NCBI GenBank assembly: GCA_028689775.1
Contig: JAQVCM010000011.1
Coordinates: forward strand, 1 to 64,000
From: Crocinitomicaceae bacterium
GTDB taxonomy: Bacteria; Bacteroidota; Bacteroidia; Flavobacteriales_D; Crocinitomicaceae
Direction of reading: 5' to 3'
Length of the DNA stretch: 64,000 nucleotides
Below are positions 52,046 to 55,275 of the stretch, piece by piece (within the stretch, counting starts at the first letter, position 1; every line of letters begins with the position of its first letter). Position numbers and translations under genes: made by a program. The notes under the pieces were generated by a model that was not told where the DNA came from, made no database searches, and saw only the letters and a program-made list of their open reading frames with translations.

Positions 52046-52472
52046 CTATTTCCAACCGCCACCAAGTGCTCGATATGCGTGAATCATCGCATTCATTTGC
52101 TCTTTCTTGGTATCAATCAATTCAAATTTTGCTTCCAGTACATCGCGTTGCGTTAACAAAACTTCCATGTAATCTGCTCTTGCTGAAGTAAACAAAGCGG
52201 TTGATATTTCTGTAGATTCTGTTAGCGCAGCAACTTGTTTTTCTTTCAGCGCATAACTTTTGCGCAAATTCTCCATGTTGGACAATTGATTTGCAACTTC
52301 TACATACGCTTTCAATAACGTTTGTTCGTATTCATACATCGCTTGAATTTGTTTTGAATTTGCGCTGTAATATTTCGCTTTAATTGCTTTTCGATTCAAT
52401 AAAGGCGCCATCAATTCACCAACTGCGTTGAAAATAAGAATTGGGAGCGAGAGCTGGTTTAAATGCGTTTAA
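52046..52472 (-). pseudogene. Truncated RND efflux outer-membrane factor (TolC/NodT type)
   Basis: The C-terminal ~135 residues of an outer-membrane efflux factor: LLNRKAIKAKY, YEQTLLKAYVEVANQLSNME, STALFTSARADYMEVLLTQRDVLEAKF and AYRALGGGWK match the second helical-hairpin half of NodT/OprM-like proteins. Full family members have about 450-480 residues. Upstream (minus direction) the frame continues through LIFNAVGEL and then meets a stop near 52470, where the tandem repeat array begins; the first ~70% is missing. Also no inner-membrane pump genes lie nearby. An ATG or TTG within the fragment could still express a peptide, but function is unlikely. Confidence 0.8.
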
Positions 52473-52481
52473 CCCAACGTA

Positions 52482-53184
52482 CATCAGTTTCGTTCCTGTT
52501 CGGAATGACTTTTTGGTTCTTGTAAAAACTGAAAAATCGCAACAATCCTTTCAATTGGAATGCGGCTTTAGCCCATTCAATTGGAAAAGTGGAAAGATAA
52601 TCTGGCTATAGCCGAAAAATTTACCAAATGCAATTGGATGAAAAAAATCATCCTTAATTCAAAAAAAGATTCCTCCAGAACCGAAACTGAAAAAGTTTCG
52701 TTCCTGTTCGGAATGACTTTTTGGTTCTTGTAAAAACTGAAAAATCGCAACAATCCTTTCAATTGGAATGCGGCTTTAGCCCATTCAATTGGAAAAGTGG
52801 AAAGATAATCTGGCTTTAGCCGAAAAAATTACCAGATGCAATTGGATGAAAAAAATCATCCTTAATTCAAAAAAAGATTCCTCCAGAACCGAAACTGAAA
52901 AAGTTTCGTTCCTGTTCGGAATGACTTTTTGATTCTTGTAAAAACTGAAAAATCGCAACAATCCTTTCAATTGGAATGCAGCTTTAGCCCATTCGATTGA
53001 AAAGTGGAAAGATAATCTGGCTTTAGCCGAAAAATTCACCAAATGCAATTGGATGAAAAAAATCATCCTTAGTTCAAAAAAAGATTCCTCCAGAACCGAA
53101 ACTGAAAAAGTTTCGTTCCTGTTCGGAATGACTTTTTGATGACGTGCAAGGCGAACTCTCAAAAGCGATGCTTTTGAGAGTTCG
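52482..53184. repeat. Composite repeat locus 2: three ~205-bp tandem units plus terminal hairpin
   Basis: Three tandem units carry, in order, TTTCGTTCCTGTTCGGAATG, CTTTCAATTGGAATGC, the motif pair GCGGCTTTAGCCC and GGCTTTAGCCGAAAA (with variants GGCTATAGCC and GCAGCTTTAGCC), GATGAAAAAAATCATCC and CCTCCAGAACCGAAAC. The array ends in a perfect 14-bp hairpin at 53152-53184 (stem CGAACTCTCAAAAG). The modules match locus 1 in inverse orientation. Open frames read through it on minus (52785-53231) repeat the same peptide and are artefacts. Confidence 0.88.
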
Positions 53185-53340
53185 TTGAGTAAGTGCTCCA
53201 TCATAAATTTGATTATATTTATCCTACTCAATCGCTTTTACTTTAGATTGATCTACACTATTTCAACGTCACAAAAGAGCATCAAACTACTGAATTTAAA
53301 AGAGGATATCATACTTCTAAACCTACTCAATACTACAATC

Positions 53341-55275
53341 ATGGATGAAATAGAATTCAATCAACTTAGCAAAGAACTTCAAGATTTATCACAGCGGATT
53401 CCTTTAAATTGGGGAATGATTCAAAATGATCAAACGGATCAGCAAATCAACATGTTTAAAATAAATGATGTTTCTACGCTTGAAGAAAAGATAAAAGACC
53501 TTGCAGAAAAAGACCAGAATTATTTCAGGAGAAGGTGGTTTCTTTGGCAATGTGCTCGGGTGGATGAATATTTATTTTACAGTATTCCAACAGTAATCGC
53601 AAATCCTTTATCGAAAGACCAAGCTTGGGACATCGAGTTTAACAGTGATTCAAATTTGAGATTTGATTTAAAGGGAACGGTTGTCCCAAAGATATTGCAA
53701 GCTGATTTTACATTAGCGGACGAAAAGAAAATCATCGATTTCTATTATAAAAATCAAAGCAAAGGAGTTCGAGATAATTACCAAAATAGAATTTTTGTGG
53801 TTCACCATTCTTTCAAAAATTTAGATCACTCGATGAATTTACGGTGTCAATGGGAATTAAAAAGGAACGCCTTTCAAGCATTTTCCGCACAAATATCAGA
53901 AAAAAAACATACAAAAATCGCAAAAGAGTGCAAGCAAAATGCCTTTTTATTCTTGAAAATGAGTTGGGTGAACACACATTTCAATTTTGATTTTAAAATA
54001 ATTACATTTGTACAAACTTGGACAGAAATGGACATCACAAGACAACTTTTAAGAATTGAAGATATTGCTGAAAGGCTGAATGTATCTCAAAAATCAGTTC
54101 GCAGATATATTCATGCAGGAAAACTGAAATCGAGTAAAATCGGAGGCGTTCATCGCATTGATGAAGTTGATTTGGAAAAATTTATTGAATCTTCCTCATT
54201 TGAAAGTGAAGAACAAGATGTGGTATCCGTTTCAGAACCAAAATCTTTGAAAACCGACAAAGTTAATTGGACGGATATTTCTGATCTGTGGGAAGACAAC
54301 AAGGAATTAGAATACACTTCTGCAGATTTATTTTGTGGCGCTGGCGGAATGGCAAAAGGTTTTGAAATGGCTGGTTTTAAGCAAGTTTGTGGCTTAGATT
54401 GGTTCAAAGAAGCTGGAATGACGTACCGCGCAAACTTTAAACATCCCTTGGTTGAAGGAGATATTACTTCTCGAGACATCAAAGATCAATTCATCAACAC
54501 AGTCAAGAAAAGTCTGAATGGCAAAAATCTGACGGTACTATCTGGCGGTTTCCCGTGTCAAGGTTTTAGCATGTCGGGAAATCGAATTGTGGAAGACGAG
54601 CGAAATTCCTTGTATAAAGACATGCTTCAAATCATCAAAGAATTACAACCCGAATACATTGTTGCTGAAAACGTGAAAGGTTTGCGTTCGATGTTGAAAG
54701 GAAAAGTAGAAGATAAAATCAAAGCAGACATTAAGAAACTAGGCTACGAAGTCAACGTAACCATCTTAAATTCTGCCGATTACTATGTTCCTCAAAAAAG
54801 AGAACGCATTATTTTTATTGCCAATCGCATTGGGAAAAAGAACTTGCATCCTACTCCACTTTTAGAATCAGATTCTTACATCACGACCAAAGAAGCGATT
54901 GAAGATTTGATAAAATTGCAAGACAATCCTGAAATTAATCACGTGCGAACGAAACACAACGACGACATGAAAAAACGCTTGGCACTCGTTCCAGAAGGGA
55001 AAAGTTTGTACGACAACTATTCCGATTCTTGGAAAAAATGTCCCTGGAACGAAGCGAGTTGTACCATCAAGGAAAATCACGGCGGTGTAAACATTCATCC
55101 AATCGAACCACGCGTGATCACCGTTCGCGAAATGGCGCGCTTGCAATCTTTCCCAGATGATTTCATTTTCAAAGGTTCGAAAGGAAAACAAATGGTTCAA
55201 ATAGGAAATGCTGTTCCACCTTTTTTAGCAAAAGCAATTGCTTTGTCGATTAAGAAATCGATTGAGAAGGAATGA
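53341..55275 (+). CDS. Restriction endonuclease-like domain fused to HTH and C5-cytosine methyltransferase
   Basis: 644 residues in one frame. Residues 1-215 look like a PD-(D/E)xK nuclease-type domain: YFRRRWFLWQCARVDEYLFY, then D97 in WDIEF and D109-L-K111 in RFDLKGT. Residues 230-283 are a MerR/excisionase-like HTH (RIEDIAERLNVSQKSVRRYI). Residues 325-644 are a complete m5C methyltransferase: DLFCGAGG (329-336), catalytic C406 in GGFPCQGFS, ENVKG (443-447), VPQKRER (483-489) and QIGNAVPP. The ATG at 53341 is chosen because the earlier open frame runs back to the repeat array. Codon 230 is an ATG preceded by TACATTTG, so the HTH-methyltransferase may also be made alone. Probably a type II restriction-modification protein; the specificity is unknown. 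Confidence 0.82.
   Translation: MDEIEFNQLSKELQDLSQRIPLNWGMIQNDQTDQQINMFKINDVSTLEEKIKDLAEKDQNYFRRRWFLWQCARVDEYLFYSIPTVIANPLSKDQAWDIEFNSDSNLRFDLKGTVVPKILQADFTLADEKKIIDFYYKNQSKGVRDNYQNRIFVVHHSFKNLDHSMNLRCQWELKRNAFQAFSAQISEKKHTKIAKECKQNAFLFLKMSWVNTHFNFDFKIITFVQTWTEMDITRQLLRIEDIAERLNVSQKSVRRYIHAGKLKSSKIGGVHRIDEVDLEKFIESSSFESEEQDVVSVSEPKSLKTDKVNWTDISDLWEDNKELEYTSADLFCGAGGMAKGFEMAGFKQVCGLDWFKEAGMTYRANFKHPLVEGDITSRDIKDQFINTVKKSLNGKNLTVLSGGFPCQGFSMSGNRIVEDERNSLYKDMLQIIKELQPEYIVAENVKGLRSMLKGKVEDKIKADIKKLGYEVNVTILNSADYYVPQKRERIIFIANRIGKKNLHPTPLLESDSYITTKEAIEDLIKLQDNPEINHVRTKHNDDMKKRLALVPEGKSLYDNYSDSWKKCPWNEASCTIKENHGGVNIHPIEPRVITVREMARLQSFPDDFIFKGSKGKQMVQIGNAVPPFLAKAIALSIKKSIEKE
54003..54010 (+). promoter_or_regulatory. 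-7-like box inside the fusion linker
   Basis: TACATTTG lies 17 bases before the in-frame ATG at 54028 that would start the HTH-methyltransferase part. No -33 element at normal spacing is obvious. It could be a relic of a once separate methyltransferase promoter, or a working internal promoter. Confidence 0.35.

Follow-up and report, generated by a model that had tools for sequence, protein, structure and literature searches.

A probable PD-(D/E)xK endonuclease joined in frame to an HTH-m5C methyltransferase in a Crocinitomicaceae genome

SsoII-type methyltransferases, which carry a helix-turn-helix (HTH) at the N-terminus of an m5C methyltransferase, act as autoregulators. Restriction and modification are combined on one polypeptide in natural type IIC/IIG enzymes such as AloI, BcgI, MmeI and TsoI. 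RM.Eco29kI is an engineered fusion of a nuclease and an m5C methyltransferase in which the overlapping stop and start codons were replaced by two glycines, and its methyltransferase makes m5C, in contrast to the m6A of all other proven type IIC enzymes (PMC3039593). The fusion kept 80% of the methyltransferase activity and about a third of the nuclease activity and gave 100-fold protection against phage, and its authors predict that natural derivatives exist (PMC3039593). We found no natural fusion of a restriction nuclease with an m5C methyltransferase in the literature searched, which does not prove that there is none. The UpaP162 restriction-modification (R-M) system of Ureaplasma, which has a relative in Mesomycoplasma hyorhinis, resembles the locus described here in having a related HTH-m5C-type methyltransferase, but there the nuclease has a gene of its own and comes from a different family.

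We analysed a 64-kb stretch of DNA from a Crocinitomicaceae bacterium (GCA_028689775.1, contig JAQVCM010000011.1, positions 1-64,000 of the forward strand; hereafter the window). A first-pass annotation made from the sequence alone had described one open reading frame with three parts, and translation yielded 644 codons without an internal stop (Table 1). The HTH and methyltransferase parts were identified by Pfam and NCBIfam and the N-terminal part by its homologues, so that at the level of the reading frame the nuclease-like and methyltransferase parts share one polypeptide, as expected of type IIC. An in-frame TTG further upstream is superfluous as a start, since the homologues of the nuclease have their own starts close to the ATG at 53341.

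Our preferred explanation of the locus as a whole, held with some confidence, is that a probable PD-(D/E)xK endonuclease is joined to an HTH-m5C methyltransferase with the same predicted site, giving a single R-M chain. Such a chain would act at CATG, where it would methylate the cytosine of host DNA and cleave DNA that lacks the methylation, the nuclease parts of two chains pairing up on the site. As in RM.Eco29kI, the nuclease precedes the m5C methyltransferase in one chain, and a stop between head-to-tail genes appears to have been removed. However, RM.Eco29kI is engineered, has a GIY-YIG nuclease, the site CCGCGG and no HTH, whereas the window frame is natural, is PD-(D/E)xK-like, has an HTH between its parts and is predicted to act on CATG. 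The natural type IIC/IIG enzymes share with it the placement of both activities on one polypeptide, but the proven ones are m6A (PMC3039593), and the window frame is m5C and contains a nuclease whose family is otherwise encoded by a separate gene, joined here through a short spacer. The first reading had called m5C unusual in a single-chain R-M protein, and PMC3039593 agrees, giving m5C only for the engineered enzyme. On present sequence evidence, the window frame would fit the natural cases foreseen by the authors of RM.Eco29kI, as a variant of type II R-M rather than an established type IIC enzyme.

Table 1. Features of the fused reading frame and its surroundings, in window coordinates
Feature	Position	Strand	Details
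Fused ORF: REase-like domain, spacer, HTH and m5C methyltransferase	53341..55275	+	644 aa
Endonuclease domain (probable), residues 1-211	53341..53973	+	homologues are separate genes, ending 2-3 residues past W209
Predicted PD-(D/E)xK site: E76 (53566), D97 (53629), D109 (53665), K111 (53671)	53566..53673	+	invariant in 60 aligned members
Spacer, residues 212-229	53974..54027	+	22% GC; no counterpart in homologues
TACATTTG, Bacteroidota -7-like promoter element (TANNTTTG) ahead of the methyltransferase start	54003..54010	+	putative function
TAAATTTG, possible promoter element for the long form	53204..53211	+	putative function
HTH-m5C methyltransferase from the internal ATG	54028..55275	+	415 aa; natural start of homologues
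HTH_17 / excisionase-type helix-turn-helix	54046..54195	+	Pfam, NCBIfam
C5 cytosine methyltransferase domain	54316..55257	+	motifs I, IV, VI, VIII, X

The C-terminal two thirds of the frame had been read as an excisionase-type HTH at about residues 230-283 and a complete C5 methyltransferase at about 325-644, and profile searches agree with both: Pfam placed HTH_17 at residues 236-285 (3.1e-13; NCBIfam, excise) and DNA_methylase at residues 326-639 (7.3e-70; NCBIfam, dcm). The C5 motifs I (FCGAGG), IV (PCQ, with its Cys at 54556), VI (ENV), VIII (QKRER) and X (GNAVPP) are present, as are motif IX and the target recognition domain (TRD), and the best relative of solved structure by sequence is M.HaeIII. 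The HTH belongs to the methyltransferase lineage, where it also occurs with no nuclease at all, and is better read as a part of the methyltransferase that serves DNA binding or autoregulation and would have arrived in the fusion with it. By analogy with SsoII-type enzymes, it probably binds DNA, perhaps its own promoter. The two share an HTH at the N-terminus of an m5C methyltransferase, but the HTH of the window is of the excisionase type, with a putative regulatory role. Among phage contigs (L142-L144 and L157-L169), we observed m5C methyltransferases that are 49-66% identical to that of the window, some with the same N-terminal HTH and mostly without an apparent neighbouring nuclease.

Past the end of the nuclease homologues, the frame runs on for 18 codons to an ATG at codon 230 (54028), which lies 17 bases after TACATTTG, as the first-pass annotation had reported. 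The + strand of the window has 39 copies of TANNTTTG in 64 kb, so that a match to it is by itself weak evidence. HTH-methyltransferases of phage contigs (L159, L164 and L167) and of Mesomycoplasma (L151) have their start where codon 230 lies, at the same distance from the HTH, which bears out the suggestion that the methyltransferase was once a separate gene starting there. The nuclease-like domain occupies residues 1-211, and residues from about 212 to 229 form a spacer that homologues lack and that lies outside any domain. Given the end of the domain, the low GC content, TACATTTG and the start of homologues at the ATG, the spacer is probably translated intergenic or promoter DNA, that is, a former intergenic region read in frame. 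With a spacer of this kind, the fusion looks like the result of the loss of the nuclease stop codon. The engineering of Eco29kI showed that loss of the stop between head-to-tail nuclease and methyltransferase genes yields a type IIC enzyme, and this locus looks like a natural case of such a loss at an early stage, in which the spacer still shows the former promoter and start codon. Provided that the fused protein is indeed produced, the locus could illustrate the way in which a restriction system of two genes turns into a single protein.

The same stretch of DNA would also suit two ordinary products, namely a methyltransferase made from its own promoter and the ATG at 54028, and a long frame that is unselected read-through or a decaying nuclease. 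The promoter-like spacer and the match of the codon 230 start with that of homologues are in keeping with this, and a random 18-codon spacer of the same composition would be free of stops by chance in 19% of cases. However, the nuclease retains every invariant residue in 211 intact codons, signs of decay are absent, and translation from the nuclease start must yield the fusion because no stop intervenes, and we consider two ordinary products rather unlikely. In the single R-M chain that we prefer, the in-frame promoter-like element and the internal ATG would allow a free HTH-methyltransferase to be made as a protective enzyme beside the long R-M protein. It is a tentative proposal, possible although doubtful, that the locus encodes the first natural type II nuclease-m5C methyltransferase chain together with a shorter HTH-methyltransferase, made from an internal promoter, that protects DNA before the long form cuts.

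The N-terminal part had no match in Pfam, NCBIfam or PADLOC (residues 1-229), including the IceA/NlaIII nuclease family (PF05315) and the UpaP162 nuclease family (NCBIfam). Searches of the nuclease part against plasmid and phage records gave no matches, and nothing meaningful was matched in PDB either by single sequence or by profile. Homologues were found in whole Bacteroidota genomes (10 standalone genes of about 205-230 codons) and in a collection of bacterial and archaeal genomes, where a scan with peptide patterns from which the variant in the window itself departs, and which may therefore have missed closer relatives, returned 218 nuclease relatives, from which 80 loci were kept. These loci span Bacteroidota, Ignavibacteriota, Chlorobiota, Cloacimonadota, Campylobacterota, Chloroflexota and other phyla. 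The family members (L042-L051 and L052-L131) are about 200-250 aa long, and models of Pfam, NCBIfam and PADLOC matched none of those scanned. In an alignment of 60 sequences including that of the window, E76, D97 and D109-x-K111 are invariant, as are R65, W66, Q139, S140, R144 and R150. The domain thus has the conserved E...D...(D/E)xK site pattern of PD-(D/E)xK nucleases, and the segment WDIEF...RFDLKGT, singled out earlier as a plausible nuclease core, corresponds to D97...D109-x-K111, with E76 in the preceding helix.

Among the 78 family loci that were read, none has a nuclease fused to a methyltransferase, and 47 encode a D12 adenine methyltransferase (with the motif MNYIGSK) within two ORFs of the nuclease. 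Six more have a gene near the nuclease whose product carries the HPPY motif typical of N4/N6 methyltransferases, which brings the loci with a D12 or N4/N6 enzyme to 53 of 78. Recurrent pairing with different kinds of methyltransferase is the pattern of a restriction nuclease and supports this reading of the domain. Residues 1-211 belong to an uncatalogued, probable endonuclease family that elsewhere forms standalone genes and has invariant putative catalytic residues. The locus thereby points to a restriction nuclease family, widespread in Bacteroidota and beyond, whose members have DNA methyltransferases of several classes as partners.

In four family loci (L055, L062, L064 and L098), the nuclease is preceded by a gene for a protein of 264-265 aa with an HPPYMDI motif, possibly a second methyltransferase besides the D12 enzyme. 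In two genera, a cassette encoding a C5 methyltransferase and a protein of about 465 aa lies between the nuclease and the D12 methyltransferase (L053:5640-8569 and L076:5694-8364); the first of these also carries an HTH regulator gene. These C5 genes were ruled out as partners of the nuclease, since each sits in a cassette inserted ahead of the D12 gene that is the customary partner. One R-M system thus appears to be nested inside another.

The structure of the window nuclease domain was predicted from a 55-row alignment with a mean pLDDT of 79, and that of a relative with a pLDDT of 95. The predicted order around the conserved residues is helix-beta-beta-beta-helix-beta: E76 lies in a long helix, D97 at the start of a strand and D109-x-K111 on the next strand, followed by a helix and a strand. 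This predicted topology suits PD-(D/E)xK enzymes. Foldseek searches with the two models against PDB and viral models gave no match at E <= 0.001; the insignificant matches include RecE, the endonuclease domain of Thogoto virus PA, XisH and N.BspD6I, and CviAII, the CATG enzyme of a Chlorella virus, was absent among the 50 matches listed for the viral library. The structural check proposed in the first-pass annotation thus agreed with a nuclease in the order of secondary structure elements but not in a significant fold match, and it is the conserved residues, the topology and the gene context that make a PD-(D/E)xK endonuclease the probable identity of the N-terminal domain. The lack of significant fold or family matches and the divergence of the window copy (21-31% identity to the rest of the family) would be compatible with another R-M accessory protein, or with a nuclease that no longer cuts in a protein acting only as a methyltransferase. 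We regard this as improbable in view of the conserved E...D...DxK pattern, its topology and the repeated pairing of the family with D12, N4/N6 and, in a phage contig, C5 methyltransferases.

That phage contig (L145, IMGVR_UViG_3300000563_000372) encodes the closest relative found of the window nuclease, a protein of 253 aa with 35% identity over 186 residues (E 6e-32). After its gene, a gap of 7 nt leads to a separate gene for an m5C methyltransferase that is 61% identical to that of the window. Homologues with the two parts as separate neighbouring genes, which the first-pass annotation had proposed to look for, therefore exist. The phage pair has a sister nuclease and a related m5C methyltransferase in the same gene order as the window, but as two genes and with a methyltransferase that lacks the HTH. 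In the tree, the two nucleases group together (support 100/98), a grouping to be read with caution because both sit on long branches, which also make functional divergence possible. Both have an insertion ahead of the conserved W171 that is missing from the D12-linked members. The pair, the sister grouping and the common insertion indicate that, in these lineages, the two proteins had probably been partners before they were fused.

The recognition site was predicted from the TRD, which is 66% identical to that of the L159 phage contig methyltransferase and 58% to that of Mesomycoplasma hyorhinis, compared with 24-34% for other m5C enzymes. The former methyltransferase adjoins a gene of the IceA family (PF05315, 1.3e-37) and the latter a gene annotated as UpaP162-family nuclease. 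UpaP162 cuts CATG; m5C escaped detection by SMRT sequencing in that study, and the authors proposed m6A, so that the methylated base of this relative may be either (PMC6191088). The H. pylori iceA1 product is 52% identical to NlaIII (PMC2749054), and hpyIM is CATG-specific (PMC4687069). From the likeness of the TRD to those of partners of IceA/NlaIII-type and UpaP162-type nucleases, CATG is our best guess for the site of the window system. A point against our reading is that the window shows no marked depletion of CATG (observed/expected 0.84). A search for IceA (PF05315) in Bacteroidota genomes, testing its pairing with D12 enzymes, found one fragment only.

The fusion was seen in a single draft genome of 48 contigs, while searches of related genomes found no other case, and it could therefore have arisen very recently or stem from an error in the sequence. 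The nuclease itself is present in one of 240 genomes of the family, that of the window, and the samples of order and class genomes contained no close relative of it. That a sequencing or assembly error erased a stop codon between two neighbouring genes is very unlikely, for although only one draft genome has the fusion and an unfused pair exists in the phage contig, the error would have had to hit exactly one codon of an otherwise clean frame, in a genome estimated to be 99.99% complete with 0.93% contamination. A comparison of occupied and empty sites within the genus found the upstream neighbour absent from relatives. On the minus strand, positions 52046-52414 encode a 122-aa fragment of an outer membrane efflux protein (OEP), which seems to come from a TolC-like gene that has been truncated. 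The R-M gene is closely preceded by a tandem array of 3.2 copies of a 208-bp repeat (52471-53138), which has 83 matches across many contigs of the genome, often as arrays.
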